From: Tateyamaria sp. ANG-S1 | Lineage (GTDB): Bacteria; Pseudomonadota; Alphaproteobacteria; Rhodobacterales; Rhodobacteraceae | Assembly (NCBI RefSeq): GCF_000814025.1 | Contig: NZ_JWLL01000001.1 | Coordinates: 186,001-250,000, forward strand | Direction of reading: 5' to 3' | Length of the DNA stretch: 64,000 nucleotides | In this document: in pieces, positions 14,153 through 64,000 of the stretch | Layout of the letters: each line of letters starts with the position of its first letter | Numbering within the stretch: position 1 is the stretch's first letter | The notes under the pieces: generated by a model | Seen by the model: only the letters and a program-made list of their open reading frames with translations | What the model was told of the DNA's origin: nothing | Database searches by the model: none | Translations under genes and position numbers: made by a program

Positions 14153-15505
14153 ATGGATTGGATTCGCGATATTGTCCAGTTTGTGGGCCTTAGCCGGTTG
14201 GAACTGGGGTTCTGGTCGTTTCCCATTCTGCTCGGCCTGATTTTTTTACGTGCGCCCATCGGGCTGGCCATGTTCCTGATGGGGCTGCTGGGCTGGATCT
14301 TTGCCATGAATGGCAATGCCACGCCGATCCTCGCCAAGCTGAAGTCCGAGACCTACACCACATTCTCTAACTACTCGTTAACCATCATCCCGATGTTCTT
14401 GCTGATGGGGCAATTTGCGACCCTGTCGGGCATGTCCACGTCGCTGTTCAAGGCGGCGGAGAGCTTTCTGGGCCACCGGAAGGGCGGGGTGGCGATGGCG
14501 TCTGTGGGCGCTTGCGCGGGCTTTGGCGCGATCTGCGGATCGTCACTGGCGACGGCGGCCACGATGGGCCGTGTGGCCCTGCCGGAGCTGAAAAGATATG
14601 GATATTCAGGGGGTTTTTCGACCGCGACCCTGGCTGCAGGTGGGACGCTGGGCATCCTGATCCCGCCGTCGGTGATCCTTGTGATCTATGCGATCATCAC
14701 GGAGCAGAACATTGCCAAGCTGTTTCTGGCGGCCTTTGTCCCCGGCATTCTGGCGGCGATGGGTTATGTGCTGACCATCTCGATCTACGTGCGGCTGTTT
14801 CCCGGAAGCGCAGGCACGCGCGAGGCTGTTCCGTGGCCGGAGCGCTGGAAAGCGCTGGGCGAGACGTGGCCGGTGCTGGCGATTTTTGCGCTGGTGGTGG
14901 GCGGTATCTATGCCGGGTGGTTCACGCCGACCGAGGGCGCCGCCGTCGGTGCGGCGGGCACGGGGCTGGTGGCGTGGCTGGGCGGCAATCTGAGCTGGCG
15001 TGTGCTGGGCGAGGCGCTGATCGGGACGGGCAAGACGACCGCCATGATCTTTTTCATCGTGTTCGGTGCAGCGCAGTATAACGGGTTTCTGGCTCTGTCG
15101 GGTGCGCCGCAGTGGCTGGCGGATTTCGTTCTGTCCCAAGGGTTTACCCCCATTCTGGTGCTGAGCGTGATCCTGCTGTTCTACCTGGTCTTTGGCTGCG
15201 TGATGGACAGCCTGTCGATGATCCTGCTGACGGTGCCGATCTTTTTCCCGGTGATCTCGGGCCTCGATTTCGGGATGTCGCCCGAGCATGTGGCGATCTG
15301 GTTTGGCATTCTGGTGCTGATCGTCGTGGAGGTGGGGCTGATCACGCCGCCTGTGGGGATGAACTTGTTTATTATCAACGCGATGGACCGGGAGACGCGG
15401 ATCACAGAGACCTACAAGGCGGTGCTGTTCTTTGTCGGGTCGGACATTTTCCGGGTGATTCTGCTGGTGGCATTCCCGGCGATCACGCTGTTTTTGATCC
15501 CCTGA
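14153..15505 (+). CDS. dctM: TRAP transporter large permease (DctM)
   Basis: 450 residues and a dozen membrane segments. Conserved DctM features are the PIGLAMFLMGLLG opening, GACAGFGAICGSSLATAATMGRVALPELKRYGY, LAAGGTLGILIPPSVILVIYAI and EVGLITPPVGMNLFIINA. It is the solute channel subunit partnered with DctQ. Last gene of the TRAP unit; a 308-bp spacer with several signals separates it from the benzoate genes. Confidence 0.92.
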   Translation: MDWIRDIVQFVGLSRLELGFWSFPILLGLIFLRAPIGLAMFLMGLLGWIFAMNGNATPILAKLKSETYTTFSNYSLTIIPMFLLMGQFATLSGMSTSLFKAAESFLGHRKGGVAMASVGACAGFGAICGSSLATAATMGRVALPELKRYGYSGGFSTATLAAGGTLGILIPPSVILVIYAIITEQNIAKLFLAAFVPGILAAMGYVLTISIYVRLFPGSAGTREAVPWPERWKALGETWPVLAIFALVVGGIYAGWFTPTEGAAVGAAGTGLVAWLGGNLSWRVLGEALIGTGKTTAMIFFIVFGAAQYNGFLALSGAPQWLADFVLSQGFTPILVLSVILLFYLVFGCVMDSLSMILLTVPIFFPVISGLDFGMSPEHVAIWFGILVLIVVEVGLITPPVGMNLFIINAMDRETRITETYKAVLFFVGSDIFRVILLVAFPAITLFLIP

Positions 15506-15580
15506 TGCGCAACGTTCGGTGGGGGTGATGTACGGTTTGGGCCGGTGCGCGCGTTAACACCATGAAAACAAGGGCGATGG

Positions 15581-15622
15581 GGGTGTCACCCCGCGTACAC
15601 TCCCTGTGCACCCCCTGTACAC
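15581..15622 (+). repeat. Phased GTRCAC element, copy A
   Basis: GGGTGTCACCCC followed by GTACAC, GTGCAC and GTACAC. Box starts are 15583, 15595, 15606 and 15617, giving spacings of 12, 11 and 11 bp. Identical spacing occurs at 44043 and 61276. Lies in the dctM-bclA gap. Confidence 0.85.
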
Positions 15623-15680: not shown

Positions 15681-15695
15681 TTAATCGTGGGTTAA
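15681..15695. promoter_or_regulatory. CtrA-type box upstream of the benzoate cluster
   Basis: TTAATCGTGGGTTAA fits the full CtrA site TTAA-N7-TTAA. It starts 133 bp before the ligase ATG; a further TTAA lies at 15675. CtrA binding is inferred only. Confidence 0.45.
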
Positions 15696-15813: not shown

Positions 15814-17340
15814 ATGGCAAACGCGGCATCCTATTTTGTGGACCGACATGTGGCCGAAGGGCGGGGTGGTAAGGTGGCCTTTCGCGAGGTTGGCACGGGG
15901 CGCAGCCTGACATATGGCGCGCTGGCCGAGGCGTCGGGGCGGGCGGCTGCTGCGTTTTTGGCGGTGGATGTGCGGCCGGAGGAGCGGGTTGCGATGCTGG
16001 TGCTGGACCAGATCGAGTTTCCGGTGCTGTTCTGGGGTGCGTTGAAGGCCGGGGTGATCCCGGTGCCGCTGAACACGCTGCTGGCGACGCCCATTTACGA
16101 TGCGATTTTGCGGGACAGTCGGGCGTCGATGCTGATCGTGTCGGAGCCTTTGTGGGACGTGGTGGCGCCTGTGTTGGAGGGCAATCCGCATCTGCGGCGG
16201 GTCGTCGTGATTGGCGCGGCGCGGGATGGCGCGGAGACTTATGATGATTTCATGGCTGGTGGACGCGCGCCGGTGCAGCCGTTTGACGCCAGGGATGATG
16301 AGACGGCGTTCTGGCTCTACTCCTCGGGCTCGACCGGGCAGCCGAAGGGGGTGCATCACGTTCATTCGGCTTTGAGGGCGACGGCGGACACTTATGGCGC
16401 GCAGGTGTTGCAGGTGCGCGAGGATGATGTGGTGTTCTCGGCTGCAAAGTTCTTTTTTGCCTATGGGCTGGGCAACGCGATGACCTTTCCGATGTCCGTG
16501 GGCGCGACTGTGGTGATCTTTGGCGGGCGGCCGACGCCGGAGGCCATGGTGCAGGTGATTGCGGACGAGCAGCCCACCGTCTTCTGCGGGGTGCCGACGC
16601 TTTATGCCGCGATGGTGGCGCATATGGAGGCGAACGGTGCGCCGGATGCGCCTTTGCGGACCTGCATCTCGGCGGGCGAGGCGTTGCCGGAGGATGTGGG
16701 GCTGCGTTGGGAGGCGCTGACAGGCGTGCCGATCTTGGATGGGGTCGGGTCGACCGAGATGCTGCATATCTTTCTGTCGAATGCGCCGGGGGATGTTGTT
16801 TACGGCACGTCGGGCGTTCCGGTGCCGGGATATGAGGTGCGGCTTGTCGATGAAGCCGGGGCTGAGGTTGGTACGGGTGAGGTCGGTGAGTTGTTGGTCA
16901 ATGGGGCGTCGGCTGCGGGCGGATATTGGAACCGGCGGGACAAGACGCGGGATACGTTCGAGGGTGTTTGGACGCGCACGGGCGACAAGTATGAGCGGCG
17001 TGAGGACGGGCGGTACGTCTACTGCGGGCGGACGGATGACATGTTCAAGGTGTCGGGGATCTGGGTCAGCCCGTTTGAGGTGGAGCAGGCGATCACCTCT
17101 CATGTCTCGGTGTTGGAATGTGCTGTGGTGGCCGCGAAGGATGCGGATGGGTTGGAGAAGCCCAAGGCTTTTGTCGTGCCGCATGGGGAGCGGCCCGAGG
17201 GCCTCGAAGAGCTGCTGAAGGATCATGTGAAGGAGCGTGTGGGCAAGTGGAAGTATCCGCGCTGGGTCGAGTGCGTGGAGAGCCTGCCCAAGACCGCGAC
17301 GGGCAAGATCCAGCGCTTCAAGCTGCGGGAGGACGTTTGA
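15814..17340 (+). CDS. bclA: Benzoate-CoA ligase
   Basis: 508 residues, ANL superfamily. The AMP-binding P-loop is YSSGSTGQPKG, followed by GVGSTEMLHIFLSN and the C-terminal KTATGKIQRFKLR with the adenylation lysine. The N-terminal NAASYFVDRHVAEGRG and the AKFFFAYGLGNAM stretch resemble benzoate-CoA ligases. It makes benzoyl-CoA from benzoate, ATP and CoA, the entry step of the box pathway whose oxygenase genes follow. GGGAGGGGG precedes the ATG. Its stop overlaps the next start (TGATG). A related aryl acid as substrate remains possible. Confidence 0.88.
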   Translation: MANAASYFVDRHVAEGRGGKVAFREVGTGRSLTYGALAEASGRAAAAFLAVDVRPEERVAMLVLDQIEFPVLFWGALKAGVIPVPLNTLLATPIYDAILRDSRASMLIVSEPLWDVVAPVLEGNPHLRRVVVIGAARDGAETYDDFMAGGRAPVQPFDARDDETAFWLYSSGSTGQPKGVHHVHSALRATADTYGAQVLQVREDDVVFSAAKFFFAYGLGNAMTFPMSVGATVVIFGGRPTPEAMVQVIADEQPTVFCGVPTLYAAMVAHMEANGAPDAPLRTCISAGEALPEDVGLRWEALTGVPILDGVGSTEMLHIFLSNAPGDVVYGTSGVPVPGYEVRLVDEAGAEVGTGEVGELLVNGASAAGGYWNRRDKTRDTFEGVWTRTGDKYERREDGRYVYCGRTDDMFKVSGIWVSPFEVEQAITSHVSVLECAVVAAKDADGLEKPKAFVVPHGERPEGLEELLKDHVKERVGKWKYPRWVECVESLPKTATGKIQRFKLREDV

Positions 17341-43706: not shown

Positions 43707-44003
43707 TTATTCTTGGTGTTTCTTGTGGTGCTGAATGACTTCAGCGATGATGAAGTTCAGGAACTTCTTGGCGAATTCCGGGTCCAGATCGGCCCGGTTT
43801 GCCAAATCTTCGAGCCGAGCGATCTGCGCGGCTTCGCGCGTGGGATCGGAGGGCGGAAGGTCGTGTGTGGCCTTGAGTTTTCCCACGGCCTGCGTGTGCT
43901 TGAACCGCTCGCCCAGGGTATAGACGAGGATCGCATCGAGCCTGTCGATGCTGGCGCGGTGGTCGGCCAGCACGTCTGCGGCGCGGGTGATGGCGTCGGT
44001 CAT
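43707..44003 (-). CDS. Chorismate mutase (AroQ type)
   Basis: 98 residues, the helical AroQ fold: [36 protein letters not shown] with the conserved lysine and [16 protein letters not shown]. Converts chorismate to prephenate. Upstream is the phased GTGCAC element; downstream rpsP. Homologues in salicylate/pyochelin pathways (pyruvate lyases) share the fold, but this context favours the mutase. Confidence 0.88.
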
Positions 44004-44042: not shown

Positions 44043-44082
44043 GTGTCACCCCGCGTGCACCATCCGTGCACCCCTTGTGCAC
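44043..44082 (+). repeat. Phased GTRCAC element, copy B
   Basis: GGGTGTCACCCC (from 44041) and GTGCAC boxes at 44055, 44066 and 44077; spacing 12-11-11, identical to copies A and C. It lies between a GNAT stop (44112) and the chorismate mutase start (44003). Confidence 0.85.
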
Positions 44083-44111: not shown

Positions 44112-44714
44112 TTAATCAAGTGCCCATCCTTTCGGTTTGAACATCGGGTCGGCGTAGTGGCCGATTTCCATCTCGATCCCGTGCGCAAGTTGCGTGCCAT
44201 CGAGCGCTTCGGGGGACGGGTGACGGTAGACTGCGTCGGAACCGTCGATGGTTTGCGCTGTCTTGTCCTTGACCGCGCCGAGCCGTTCGGCCAGCCGGAT
44301 GCTGTCGAGGTTCATCGGGTCGAGATAGCTGACAGCACCCTCCCAACCATTCGCGTAGTAGTGCGCGCGCACCGCATGGGTCGCTTCGAGCGCGTAACCC
44401 TTGCCCGCTTTGTCGGGCCAGATGATCCAGGCAATCTCGCGTTCCGGCCAGCCTGCGGGCTGCCAGCCCCCGGCCATGCCATAGGTGTCATCCGTGTCCT
44501 TGTCGTGGATCATCCACATGCCGAAGCCGCGGATGTCCCAATGACCGATTTCAGCGGCGTAGAGCATCCACGCCTCGTAAGCGTTCAGCGGGCCGCCCAT
44601 GAAACGGGAGCGGTAGGAGGCAAAGGTGGCCTTGAAGTTCGGATAGTCCTCCGGTTCCGGCCCGCGCAGGACGAGGCGCTGGGTTTCGATGACGGGGATG
44701 GCGGCGTGAGACAT
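44112..44714 (-). CDS. GNAT acetyltransferase 5 of the array
   Basis: 200 residues. ETQRLVLRGPEPEDYPNF at the N-terminus, HWDIRGFGMWMIHDKDTDDTYG, AGKGYALEATHAVRAH (acetyl-CoA loop) and LDSIRLAERLGA fit the RimJ/RimL-type GNAT branch. ATG 44714 shares bases with the stop of the previous gene (TGATG). The C-terminal 40 residues extend beyond the usual domain. Substrate unknown. Confidence 0.88.
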   Translation of the reverse strand: MSHAAIPVIETQRLVLRGPEPEDYPNFKATFASYRSRFMGGPLNAYEAWMLYAAEIGHWDIRGFGMWMIHDKDTDDTYGMAGGWQPAGWPEREIAWIIWPDKAGKGYALEATHAVRAHYYANGWEGAVSYLDPMNLDSIRLAERLGAVKDKTAQTIDGSDAVYRHPSPEALDGTQLAHGIEMEIGHYADPMFKPKGWALD

Positions 44715-45277
44715 CACATCACCTCCCGGACGTAGCGGTAGATGAGGGTGGTTTCGCCATCTTGGGCGATCTCGCCATCTGGCAGGCCGCCGAGGCGTTG
44801 CGCCAGCTTGATCGAGCGCGCGTTGGCGTGGTCGATATAGGAGACGAGCGTGGACCAGCCGAGGGTTTGGAAAGCGTGGGTGAGGGCGGCTTGTGCCGCT
44901 TCGCGTGCGATACCTATCCCTTCGGCTTTCTCGGTCAGCATGAAGCCCAGTTCGGGTTCGGGGTCGCCGGGCTCAAAGCCCAGCACGACGAAGCCCGCGA
45001 TGTCGCCCGCATGCCCGATAGTCCAGAGACCGTAGCCGTGCAGGAGCCAAGTTGAGGTCATCTGGGAAAAGTCGAGCCAAGCGTCTTCGCGCGTCATTGG
45101 TCCGCCCAGATGCTTGCCGCGGTCGGTGCAGGCGATTTGGGCGTAGGTGTCGAAATCGGTCACGCGCGGGGCGCGCAGGATCAGCCGGTCGGTTGCGAGG
45201 GTCGGCAGATGGCCTTGGAGCGCGATGGCGAAGAGGGAGGCCGCGCCGGTGCGGGGCGTTTCGCAAGGGAAGGTCAT
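44714..45277 (-). CDS. GNAT acetyltransferase 4 of the array
   Basis: 187 residues. LATDRLILRAPRVTDFDTYA, GFVVLGFEPGDPEPELGFML, GIGIAREAAQAALTHAF and NARSIKLAQRLGG match the others. It has about 20 extra N-terminal residues. ATG 45277 has GGAAAGG upstream. Follows a 139-bp gap containing the GAAACAGGGAAG repeat, so it may start a new transcript. Confidence 0.86.
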   Translation of the reverse strand: MTFPCETPRTGAASLFAIALQGHLPTLATDRLILRAPRVTDFDTYAQIACTDRGKHLGGPMTREDAWLDFSQMTSTWLLHGYGLWTIGHAGDIAGFVVLGFEPGDPEPELGFMLTEKAEGIGIAREAAQAALTHAFQTLGWSTLVSYIDHANARSIKLAQRLGGLPDGEIAQDGETTLIYRYVREVM

Positions 45278-48793: not shown

Positions 48794-48935
48794 GGGCCTT
48801 CATCCTTTCGACCGTTGACGTTTGCCTGACACGTAAGTGCAAGCGGTGCAGACCCCAAGAAACAGACCCAAACGAAAAGCACCCCCGTGGGCGCAACGCG
48901 CTGACGGAGGGCGATCCCGGGCATATCCCAAGGGA

Positions 48936-60383: not shown

Positions 60384-61151
60384 TCAGGTGGTGGTCTCGT
60401 GGTCGAGCCGCTGGCGCGCGATCTCTTCGTTGTGCTCGGCCTTTTGCTGGTCGCGCAGGGCGCGTTCGACATAGTCGAGATGGGCGTGGACGGCGGTGCG
60501 GGCGGTGTCGGGGTCGCGGGCTTGCAGGGCCTCGTTGATCTGGCGGTGTTGGTCCAGAAGCGCCTGCCGTGTGGTGCGTTGCTTGAACATGACCTGACGG
60601 TTGTAGAACACACCATCTCGTAACAGTTGGTACATCGACCGCATCATGTGGAGCATGATGACGTTGTGGCTGGCTTCGATGATCGCCATGTGGAATTGCG
60701 CGTCAAGCTGGGCTTCTTCCTCGCCATTGCGCTTGGGATGGGCGGCTTCCATCTTCTCAAACACCTTTTGCACGACCGCCAGATCAGTGTCCGACCCTAG
60801 CCGTGCGGCACGCTCGGCGGCCAGTCCCTCCATGTCGCGGCGAAAGCTGAGATAGTCGAAGACGGCCTCGTCATGGCGGGCGAAAAGTTCCGTTAAAGCA
60901 GGGGCGAAGGCAGAGCCAAGGACGTCGGCGACGTAGACACCCGCGCCGGGTTTGGCGACCAGCAGGCCCGTCTCTTGCAGGGTGCCGATGGCGTCGCGCA
61001 GGGAGGGGCGGGAGACGCCCATGCGTTCGGCGAGATCCCGTTCGGGGGGCAGCCGTTCACCCGGGCGCAGGATGCCGCGCAGGATCAATTGTTCGATCTG
61101 GCGGATCACGGCGGCGGATAGTTTGTCGGGCTGGACGGGGCGAAAGGGCAT
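60384..61151 (-). CDS. FadR-type GntR regulator (FCD domain)
   Basis: 255 residues. N-terminal winged helix (GILRPGERLPPERDLAERMG, RPSLRDAIGTLQETGLLV) and an all-helical FCD ligand domain with FRRDMEGLAAERAARLG and DAQFHMAIIEASHN, which carries the metal-binding histidine pattern. Similar to PdhR/LldR/GlcC types responding to 2-oxo or hydroxy acids. An inverted repeat upstream may be its autoregulatory operator. Confidence 0.9.
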   Translation of the reverse strand: MPFRPVQPDKLSAAVIRQIEQLILRGILRPGERLPPERDLAERMGVSRPSLRDAIGTLQETGLLVAKPGAGVYVADVLGSAFAPALTELFARHDEAVFDYLSFRRDMEGLAAERAARLGSDTDLAVVQKVFEKMEAAHPKRNGEEEAQLDAQFHMAIIEASHNVIMLHMMRSMYQLLRDGVFYNRQVMFKQRTTRQALLDQHRQINEALQARDPDTARTAVHAHLDYVERALRDQQKAEHNEEIARQRLDHETTT

Positions 61152-61275: not shown

Positions 61276-61315
61276 GTGTCACCCCCTGTGCACCCTGCGT
61301 GCACCCCCTGTGCAC
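61276..61315 (+). repeat. Phased GTRCAC element, copy C
   Basis: GGGTGTCACCCCC and GTGCAC boxes at 61288, 61299 and 61310; spacing 12-11-11. A GTTAAC palindrome follows at 61339. Lies between the GntR gene and a small lipoprotein gene. Confidence 0.85.
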
Positions 61316-61403
61316 CCCCAACGGGCGCTTGGACGGTGGTTAACGCAACGCGCGGTGGGTTCTGTTCACCGGATGTTAACCAAGTGTCGGCTTTGCTGCG
61401 CTC

Positions 61404-61808
61404 ATGCGTTTCCTTCTGTTTGCCTGCCTTACCCTCGCCGCCTGCAACACGCCTGGCCCGCATTTTCGCGGTTTGCCCGCCACCACGGTCACGGTTGACG
61501 GCTCCACCTTTGACGTACGCGTCAACGGGCGGCTGGCGGAGGCGCTGCGGACGAACATGCAGTATGCGCCGCGCTTTGGTCCCATCAGACAACGCGCGGC
61601 CAAGGCGATGGAGATCGTGAGCGGCTGCGAGGTCAAGGAGGTGCGGGGGGATCAAGCTCTGGCCACTGGCATTCTGGATTGTGGCAAGGGCGGTCCGTCC
61701 GTCGACCGGCAGGTGCCGCAGGACGAGCTAAGCTGTTACACGCTCGACAGCTATGTCAGCCCGGCCACGGATGAACTTGTGCTGGCCGTGGATTGCGACG
61801 TGATCTGA
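61404..61808 (+). CDS. Small lipoprotein
   Basis: 134 residues with a lipobox LTLAAC (C14), so lipid-anchored. The mature part has TVTVDGSTFDVRVNGRLAEA and a Cys pair (SGCEVKEV, LDCGKGG). Family not recognised. It sits just downstream of the phased GTRCAC element and upstream of smc, 125 bp apart. Possibly an outer-membrane-attached protein. Confidence 0.65.
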   Translation: MRFLLFACLTLAACNTPGPHFRGLPATTVTVDGSTFDVRVNGRLAEALRTNMQYAPRFGPIRQRAAKAMEIVSGCEVKEVRGDQALATGILDCGKGGPSVDRQVPQDELSCYTLDSYVSPATDELVLAVDCDVI

Positions 61809-61933
61809 CGCCGCTGCCCGCAATATCTTGTGGATAAACCCGCCCAAATCGCAGTTTGTGGGGGCGTGGCGTTGACAGCTTTGCCCATGGCCGTCCACCA
61901 TGCCAGCCCAACCAGACTCACTTTGGGGGCCGC

Positions 61934-64000
61934 GTGCGCTTTTCCAAACTCCGACTGACAGGCTTCAAATCCTTTGTCGATCCGACAGATCTGATCATCG
62001 CGGACGGGTTGACCGGCGTGGTCGGCCCCAATGGCTGCGGCAAGTCGAACCTGCTGGAAGCGCTGCGCTGGGTGATGGGTGAGAACCGCCCCACGGCGAT
62101 GCGCGGCGGGGGGATGGAGGATGTGATCTTTGCCGGCGCGTCGACCCGGCCCGCGCGCAACTTTGCCGAGGTCAGCCTGCACATCGACAACTCGGAGCGT
62201 TTGGCCCCCGCCGGGTTCAACGATCAGGACGCGCTGGAGATCGTGCGCCGGATCACGCGGGATGTGGGCAGCGCCTACAAGACCAATGGCAAGGACGTGC
62301 GTGCGCGTGATGTGCAGATGCTGTTTGCCGATGCGTCCACGGGCGCGCATTCGCCCGCGCTGGTGCGGCAGGGACAGATTGCGGAGCTGATTAACGCCAA
62401 GCCGAAGAACCGGCGCCGCATTCTTGAGGAAGCGGCTGGGATTTCGGGCCTGTATCAGCGGCGGCATGAGGCCGAGTTGAAGCTGAAAGGGGCCGAGCAG
62501 AACCTGGCCCGCGTCGATGATGTGATCGAGCAGTTGGCGGCGCAGTTGAACCAATTGGCGCGGCAGGCGAGGCAGGCCGCGCGGTATCGCGAGATTGGCG
62601 ATTCCCTGCGCAAGGCCGAGGGGCAGTTGCTGTATCGCCGCTGGCGCGAGGCGGATGATGCGCGGGCGGCGGCGGATGAGGAGTTGCGCGCGCGGACCAC
62701 GGCGGCGGCGCAGGCAGAAGGCGCTGTGCAGGTGTCGGCCAAGGCGCGGGTTGCTGCGGAGGATGCCTTGCCCCCATTGCGCGAGGAGGATGCGATTGCG
62801 GCGGCTGTCTTGCAGCGTCTTGCGGTGCAGCGCGATACGCTGGCGGATCAGGAAGCGCAGGCGGAGCAGGCGATTGAGCGGCTAACCGGGCGGATTGCGC
62901 AGTTGGCCCGCGACATTGAGCGCGAGGGCGGGCTGAACAAGGACGCGGGCGAAACGATTGAGCGTCTGGAATGGGAAGCGGCCGAGATTGCCAAGGCGAG
63001 CGAGGGGCATGAGACGCTGCTGGCAGAGGCAGCCGAGGCGGCGCGCGAGGCGGGTCAGGTCTTGCAGGCCCGCGAGGGCGATCAGTCGGACAAGACCGAG
63101 GATGTGGCGCGGCTGGCAGCGCGGCATGGGTCGGCGCAGCGGCTTCTGGAAGACAGCCGTAAGGTTGAGGCGAAGTCGGAGGCTGAGGCGGAGAAGGCGC
63201 GGGCGGCTGTGGCGACGAGCCGTGCGGCTTTGGACAAGGCGGGCGTGGATTTTGAAGCTGCCGAGGCGGCGTCGGCCGAGGCAGAGGCGACGGCCAAGCG
63301 CGCCGACGCGGCGCTGATCGCGGCGGAGGAGGCGCGGGCCGAGACCCAGTCGCGTGAGGCGGATGCCCGTGCGGAGCGGTCGGAGGCAGAGGGCGAGATG
63401 AACGCCTTGCGCGCTGAGGCCGGGGCGCTTGCCAAGCTGGTGGAGCGGGATACGGCTGAGGGTGGTCAGATCCTCGACCGGTTGCAGGTGCAGCAAGGGT
63501 TTGAAAAGGCGCTTGGTGCGGCTTTGGCCGATGATTTGCGCGCCCCGCAAGTTGAGGCGGATGGGCCGTCTGGTTGGGCGGTGTTGCCTGCCTATGACGT
63601 GGATCAGCCTTTGCCGGAGGGGGTGACGGCGCTGACGGAACACGTGTCGGTGCCGGAGGTGTTGCAGCGCCGGATGTCGCAGATCGGGCTTGTTGACGCG
63701 GATGATGCGGCGCGGTTGCAGCCGCTCTTGAAGCCCGGCCAGCGGTTGGTGTCGCAGGAAGGTGACGTTTGGCGTTGGGATGGTTTCCGTGCTTGGGCCG
63801 AGGATGCGCCGAGTGCGGCAGCTTTGCGCTTGCAGCAGTTGAACCGGTTGGAGGAGTTGAAGCAGTCGTTGGAGCGGGCCACGTCCCGTGCGGATGGTGC
63901 GCGGCAGGCGCATGAAGCTTTGACGGCGCGGATGGCGGAGTTGGCTGAGGCTGATAAGTTGGCCCGCAATACCCGTCGTGAGGCGGACCGGATGGTCGCA
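61934..64000 (+). CDS. smc: Chromosome segregation protein SMC (5' part)
   Basis: Open from the GTG at 61934 to the window edge (689 codons, no stop). The N-terminus is the ATPase head: LRLTGFKSFVDPTDL and Walker A VVGPNGCGKSNLLEALRW, then ENRPTAMRGGGMEDVIFAGA. From about residue 165 a long coiled coil follows (many Ala/Glu/Arg repeats), with the hinge region around residue 530-600 (GWAVLPAYDVDQPLPEGVTA). SMC condenses DNA and holds sister origins. Roughly 1150 residues expected, so the second coil and head lie outside. Confidence 0.96.
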   Translation, partial: MRFSKLRLTGFKSFVDPTDLIIADGLTGVVGPNGCGKSNLLEALRWVMGENRPTAMRGGGMEDVIFAGASTRPARNFAEVSLHIDNSERLAPAGFNDQDALEIVRRITRDVGSAYKTNGKDVRARDVQMLFADASTGAHSPALVRQGQIAELINAKPKNRRRILEEAAGISGLYQRRHEAELKLKGAEQNLARVDDVIEQLAAQLNQLARQARQAARYREIGDSLRKAEGQLLYRRWREADDARAAADEELRARTTAAAQAEGAVQVSAKARVAAEDALPPLREEDAIAAAVLQRLAVQRDTLADQEAQAEQAIERLTGRIAQLARDIEREGGLNKDAGETIERLEWEAAEIAKASEGHETLLAEAAEAAREAGQVLQAREGDQSDKTEDVARLAARHGSAQRLLEDSRKVEAKSEAEAEKARAAVATSRAALDKAGVDFEAAEAASAEAEATAKRADAALIAAEEARAETQSREADARAERSEAEGEMNALRAEAGALAKLVERDTAEGGQILDRLQVQQGFEKALGAALADDLRAPQVEADGPSGWAVLPAYDVDQPLPEGVTALTEHVSVPEVLQRRMSQIGLVDADDAARLQPLLKPGQRLVSQEGDVWRWDGFRAWAEDAPSAAALRLQQLNRLEELKQSLERATSRADGARQAHEALTARMAELAEADKLARNTRREADRMVA

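Follow-up and report, generated by a model that had tools for sequence, protein, structure and literature searches.

In plasmid centromeres of the ParR-parC type, dimers of a ribbon-helix-helix (RHH) protein bind direct repeats of about 11 bp, arranged in tandem at one locus, and act with an actin-like partner, and in the Sulfolobales the RHH protein SegB is encoded together with SegA, a ParA-type ATPase. SegB has a few dozen scattered chromosomal sites, bridges DNA and recognizes a motif that is conserved across genera (PMC12284271). The closest studied case that we have found for the elements described below, in the likeness of its description, would be CdbA of Myxococcus xanthus. This RHH-family protein is essential, binds c-di-GMP and gives 569 ChIP-seq peaks over the chromosome, about 35% of them intergenic; its motif is a direct repeat with a 4-bp separation, consistent with two binding regions spaced by one helical turn, and its depletion causes modest changes in transcription and a disturbed chromosome organisation (PMC7156744).

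Here, we have analysed a 64-kb stretch of the genome of Tateyamaria sp. ANG-S1 (the window), in which a first-pass annotation had pointed to three intergenic copies (15581, 44041 and 61274) of an element made of one GTGTCA and three GTRCAC boxes. All three were borne out, with coordinates right within 2 bp: the pattern GTGTCA-N6-GTRCAC-N5-GTRCAC-N5-GTRCAC has three exact matches in the window, on the + strand (starts 15583, 44043 and 61276), a scan allowing up to three mismatches added none, and none arose in 100 dinucleotide shuffles. The fixed spacing also stands, although the 12-11-11 first given becomes 11-11-11 when box 1 is read as TGTCAC. The description of the boxes as palindromic hexamers is right only in part; we rejected palindromic boxes in view of the third base, which may be A or G, and of box 1, which reads TGTCAC. 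Since GTACAC and TGTCAC are not palindromic, direct repeats fit better.

Copy A (15584..15622, +) carries the boxes TGTCAC, GTACAC, GTGCAC and GTACAC in an 11-bp phase, between a TRAP DctM gene (14153-15505, +) and the gene for an AMP-binding enzyme (15814-17340, +). GTTAAC can be read in the sequence on its 5' side (15553..15558) and TTAA-N7-TTAA, in form a putative CtrA box, on its 3' side (15681..15695). Copy B (44044..44082, +; TGTCAC and three times GTGCAC) lies upstream of a chorismate mutase gene (43707-44003, -), past the stop of a GNAT gene (44112-44717, -). Copy C (61277..61315, +; again TGTCAC and three times GTGCAC) separates divergent genes for a GntR/FCD regulator (60384-61151, -) and a 134-aa protein with no Pfam match (61404-61808, +). 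A gene with an SMC_N match (window 61856-64000, +) starts 541 bp past copy C, behind the 134-aa gene; the closeness of this chromosome-structuring gene is possibly a coincidence. An RNA element was considered and rejected, as Rfam at gathering thresholds gave no match at the three copies, its matches in the window being tRNA and ffh RNA. The ffh sRNA (RF01793) lies at window 48874-48925 (-).

A genome-wide search, which the annotation had suggested, found 22 four-box sites (up to three mismatches) in the 4.43 Mb and 32 contigs of this genome, with none for the reversed control, while a three-box pattern with up to two mismatches gave 72 rows, overlapping and on both strands, versus three for its reversed control. 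Merging of the two scans left 28 distinct arrays with three to five counted units each, a count that often omits box 1, and 24 of the 28 were called intergenic. GTRCAC four-box sites are present in 14 of 20 Tateyamaria genomes and, in two overlapping family samples searched with slightly different patterns, in 6 of 149 and 17 of 345 genomes (control 0). Furthermore, an exact scan of named genomes returned at least 113 stretches with the pattern. Nearly all titles among the matches listed are Rhodobacteraceae or Rhodobacterales, the genera including Tateyamaria, Nioella, Roseicyclus, Sulfitobacter, Loktanella, Paracoccus and others; two MAGs are titled Proteobacteria (L118) and Deltaproteobacteria (L208), and several loci Maritalea mobilis. 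The 11-bp pitch is retained in relatives whose linkers differ, so that free linkers at a fixed spacing, as first proposed, are also seen in further copies, among those found by a spacing-tolerant comparison of periods.

The arrays are dispersed and mostly intergenic, in agreement with the expectation that they would not lie at random in coding DNA. By our own simple gene finder, 149 of 180 distinct arrays in the fetched loci are intergenic (93 between tandem genes, 29 convergent, 16 divergent and 11 undecided), and part of the 31 called inside genes may be errors of the finder. Between tandem genes, 60 arrays are oriented opposite to the genes and 33 along them, and for 59 of the 180 the nearest 3' end of a gene is no more than 30 bp away. 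The annotation had also proposed to check whether the copies precede one function class; none stood out among the neighbour clusters listed. Array number is uneven between genomes. In the Tateyamaria genome G002, 33 arrays (counted from 91 rows) are spread across a 3.86-Mb contig and lean to one strand over long stretches. Orientation by replichore was dropped, because the origin and terminus of G002 could be placed only roughly from 8-kb samples and the skew samples of genome G068 were too flat to place them.

Chorismate mutase gave hits in 118 genomes, and the site of copy B was inspected in 30 of these, one being the present genome; the choice took no account of boxes. Over these 98.7 kb, a four-unit detector found pitch-11 arrays in seven of the 30 genomes (again including this one), all at copy B's site; the same detector gave 12 hits at pitch 9, three at 15, two at 12 and none at the rest, which we put down to codons. 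This same site bears other words in some other genera, namely ATGCACA (ATGCAC), GTATGG and GTATGAC and, read by eye from three units, CATATG (L278), CGTCGG (L261) and GTGCATA (L277). Searched genome-wide, the word GTATGR, derived from two such loci, has 34 matches in G090 (control 1) and 30 in G068 (control 0), and recurs, unplanned, in G124 (32, control 11) and G082 (12, control 0). There was one match each in G103 and G119 (control one each) and none in the other 24 of the 30 genomes, this one included. A constant pitch, combined with variable linkers and, in other genera, a different box word, supports binding by a protein multimer on one DNA face, and not an RNA, as the first-pass annotation had suggested.

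A candidate for this protein came from the neighbours of 201 arrays, a clustering that left out nine of the 30 loci from the GTATGR scan. The largest clusters are core genes, for example rpsP, chorismate mutase and lpd, and ABC-transporter ATPases; a small protein adjoins arrays in six different genomes. In Tateyamaria sp. ANG-S1 this protein has 124 aa, is encoded outside the window (G000:C29:209671-210045, locus L320) and matches PF14384, the BrnA antitoxin family, with 46.6 bits versus a cut-off of 26.1; the domain match is present in 25 of 25 aligned members (E 0.001). The BrnA family presumably has an RHH fold. In a monomer model (pLDDT 70.5), predicted helices at residues 64-72 and 77-93 follow a putative strand at about 55-61, where the model shows no strand, and an extra N-terminal part is predicted to be helical; a structure search with this modest model gave no PDB match.

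The gene was found by profile search in 22 of 30 chosen genomes, most with a visible, in some cases weak, 11-bp array upstream. It was often not found: 125 genomes of the 345-genome family sample match at E 1e-10 and 220 do not, and 7 of 20 Tateyamaria genomes have no match at E 1e-5. Upstream DNA was obtained for 110 of the family-sample hits (30 loci and 80 places), the remaining hits being left out. A recognised array lies upstream of the gene at 91 of 133 distinct loci of relatives, and 42 are without one; in the controls, in-phase words occurred at 3, 10 and 6 loci for pitches 10, 12 and 13, and reversed words at 14. Similarly, when period 11 was compared with periods 8, 9, 10, 12, 13 and 14 upstream of the 133 loci, it was best at 108, tied at three and lower at 22. 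No BrnT toxin, and no ParA- or actin-like protein or motor ATPase, was present among the ten neighbours from ten loci that were scanned against Pfam (28 neighbours of 15 loci being listed), which matched SnoaL, PIN_3, DUF2267, AbiEii, ANTAR, ACP_syn_III or nothing. The best explanation would be an orphan, self-regulated protein. In G030, a PIN_3-domain gene (L319:1914-2333, +) lies directly downstream of the BrnA-like gene, and its product is possibly a toxin partner in that lineage. Of three proteins scanned for defence systems, one had a single weak match. A phage or plasmid origin was rejected: with the LSUCC0031 orthologue as query there was no phage match, and nine plasmid records matched partially, at 36-60% identity. 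Neither such arrays nor this protein in Rhodobacteraceae was found among the matches listed in a search of the open-licence literature.

Three residues at alternating positions in the putative strand (R51, T53 and R55 here) covary with the box word. R-T-R occurs with GTRCAC at 33 loci, GTGCAK at three, GTATGA at two and no word at seven; K-T-Y with GTCGGT at 11 and none at one; R-T-L with CATATG at five; R-T-S/A/G with ATRCAC at six and none at five; and K-T-R with GTMTGG at seven, GTCGGT at five and none at nine, while N53 goes with GTCTT in four of four cases. In short form, R-T-R corresponds to GTRCAC, R-T-S/A to ATGCAC, R-T-L to CATATG, K-T-Y to CGTCGG and K-T-R/S to GTMTGG. R55 pairs with G at the first base of the GTRCAC word, and S, A, G and L pair with A; R51 is found mostly with CA-type and K51 with GG-type words. 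In a test that left out the rule-making genomes and known genomes of the same genera, 34 of 40 later loci agreed with the rules drawn from the earlier ones (shuffled mean 10.3, maximum 20 in 10,000), with the qualification that the later loci were already on view when the word classes used in the scoring were drawn up; most rules had been noted earlier, and the K-T-Y rule, which provides ten of the 34 correct cases, was recognised later than the others. The six misfits are five K-T-R loci with GTCGG and one R-T-R locus with GTATGA. Outside the score stand 19 later loci with a rule and no recognised array and 36 without a rule, and further exceptions are R-T-R with GTATGAC in G090 and K-T-L with GTCGG, seen twice.

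On a tree of 91 loci built without the strand columns, in which many forks are weak, the word changes at least 31 times, or at least 27 times once two similar classes are combined into one; for residue 51 the minimum is 14 changes. Sign tests on well-supported branches had 2, 1, 4 and 1 pairs, too few, and none was significant; that for Y with GTCGG had a single pair and mostly no difference. Paralogues within a genome also differ in word, as in G250, which has three copies, and in G317, where two close paralogues (L420 and L464) differ in both strand and word. For the other words, dispersed chromosomal direct repeats one turn apart are present in a 400-kb sample of G257 (K-S-Y), with ten GTCGG arrays, nine of them apart from the gene's own promoter (eight arrays by the stricter CGTCGGT), and 16 pairs at spacing 11 versus 0-3 at other spacings from 7 to 21. 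No array was seen in a 200-kb sample of G068. Of two further genomes that have the gene, G092 showed none in a 400-kb sample beyond the two deliberately included (the gene's own site and chorismate mutase), and G032 none in a 400-kb sample that missed its two known sites.

Gene and arrays also occur together within the genus. Between 1 and 27 arrays are present in each of the 12 Tateyamaria genomes that carry the gene or a remnant of it, versus 0, 0, 0, 0, 0, 0 and 1 in the seven without (p 0.0004), and the strand is R-T-R in 11 of the 12, being unreadable in G019. The single GTRCAC array of G018 would be explained by its K-T-Y protein, which has a CGTCGGT array upstream. In-frame stops lie inside the match in G002, G006, G007 and G019; despite them G002, G006 and G019 keep seven to nine arrays, and G007 keeps one, which would follow if arrays persist for some time after the gene is lost. 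In the family sample, the gene is present in 15 of 17 genomes with GTRCAC arrays, one of them (G380) counted by a short match only, versus 110 of 328 without (p 9e-6), and all 14 typed genomes with both arrays and gene have an R-T-R copy. In G099, a CGTCGG array stands at the chorismate mutase site (L261) and no BrnA-like gene was found in the genome.

The GTTAAC noticed near the copies is real: in this genome it lies within 80 bp on the 3' side of 15 of 28 arrays, versus 8 of 28 on the 5' side. At copy C it is found at 61339..61344, 23 bp 3' of the array, where the type I module described below has its conserved 3' end. The 3' preference is seen in the genus (13 of 27 arrays, versus three on the 5' side) and not in other genera (16 versus 15 of 125). 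In an uncontrolled count, with one gene counted twice, 74 of the gene's 91 promoters have TTAA[CG] or TTTACC on the 3' side of the array, and the motif may belong to the promoter or be half of a CtrA site. A sharp-edged type I module (5' TTTACCTTGTTTTCATAGAGATTGACGCC, 3' GGTTAACGCAACGTGCGGTG) of about 125 bp is common to four arrays here (L003, L004, L008 and L019), copy C being one of them, and some copies thus seem to have spread as modules. Type II modules of 153-176 bp, with imperfect terminal inverted repeats CACCGTACGCGCAACGGTTAAC around the array, are found at L016, L021, L033, L075, L147 and L222.

Taken as a whole, the arrays are in all likelihood tandem docking sites of the small BrnA-family protein, and the narrower proposal, that this protein is what binds them, is judged from sequence to be very probable. 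The 11-bp pitch, the direct repeats and the covarying strand suggest RHH dimers side by side, each a helical turn from the next and bound to its own box, which would give a short filament along a single DNA face. Since an array lies at the promoter of its own gene, the protein would probably regulate itself. Its most likely main role would be sequence-specific organisation of the chromosome, in which it would bridge or anchor many loci as CdbA does, rather than control of a promoter regulon; we rate this role about evenly between right and wrong.

That the same protein is an ordinary transcription regulator, with the arrays as the operators of its regulon, is possible and in our judgement doubtful. 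Such a regulator would suit the array upstream of its own gene in those 91 of 133 relatives and the arrays in divergent promoter regions, such as copy C. However, only 16 of the 149 intergenic arrays (180 in total) are divergent while 29 are convergent, in gaps that are not expected to contain promoters, and 59 of the 180 are within 30 bp of a gene's 3' end; arrays in convergent gaps and near gene ends argue against a plain promoter regulon, as does the lack of a prominent function class among the neighbour clusters listed. A centromere-like partition system of the ParR-parC or SegB kind, moved by an ATPase, would likewise place a protein of RHH type on direct repeats that follow each other at intervals of one turn, and about 35-49 scattered chromosomal sites are described for SegB (PMC12284271). 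Nevertheless, this seems unlikely, given arrays spread over the G002 chromosome, a gene not found in 220 of 345 family genomes and no ParA- or actin-like protein among the ten scanned neighbours.

The sharp-edged module of about 125 bp in four copies here, and the six Tateyamaria loci with 153-176-bp modules and imperfect terminal inverted repeats, are what a mobile, MITE-like repeat family without cellular function would leave. However, no target-site duplication was seen at those six loci, the same site carries differing words in different genera, and the words track the protein. At six shared sites the boxes also vary less than the linkers and flanks (0.025 versus 0.191 and 0.232 differences per site), although the box figure is biased downward since five of the six sites were found through the box pattern. 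Furthermore, the data from the genus point toward fewer arrays and poorer boxes after loss of the gene, and we hold a purely mobile family to be quite improbable. OmpR/PhoB-type response regulators bind 11-bp direct repeats and thus match the pitch, and box 1, TGTCAC, presumably looks like one half of a Pho box. The sites of PhoB, however, are generally conserved among bacteria, whereas the word here changes from genus to genus together with the BrnA-family protein, which makes sites of this type highly improbable.

Returning to docking of the BrnA-family protein, we see a roughly equal chance for and against a broader proposal, that one protein and its arrays constitute a chromosome-wide addressing system and repeatedly change their shared word together. 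If this were true, genomes with several paralogues (G250 and G317) would run several addresses side by side, and dozens of chromosomal sites would switch specificity together with their reader, a bacterial parallel to PRDM9, whose DNA-binding specificity evolves fast. How a genome alters dozens of sites at once would then be testable by comparison of close relatives. Natural variants, instead of mutants, would also provide a readable protein-to-DNA recognition code for an RHH family, and proteins now named BrnA antitoxin in Rhodobacteraceae would have a candidate function.

In summary, the system shares features with each of the described ones. It is like the BrnA antitoxins (PF14384) in the domain match of all 25 aligned members, but differs from them in its dispersed chromosomal sites, its extra N-terminal part, predicted to be helical, and the absence of BrnT among the ten scanned neighbours. 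Similarly, tandem direct repeats of about 11 bp recall ParR-parC, whereas dozens of sites in several genomes, and no actin-like partner among those ten neighbours, do not. With SegB it has in common a presumed RHH protein, a few dozen scattered chromosomal sites and, in the proposed role, bridging of DNA; unlike SegB, its word differs between lineages and no ATPase was found among the same ten neighbours. Set beside those described for CdbA (PMC7156744), the sites here have three to seven ordered boxes, a lineage-specific word and a mostly intergenic location (149 of 180, versus about 35% for CdbA), and the BrnA-like gene, unlike the essential CdbA, is often not found in the genomes sampled here. 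The system is nonetheless like CdbA in its RHH-family protein, presumed in our case, its many dispersed sites and a direct repeat whose units lie one helical turn apart.
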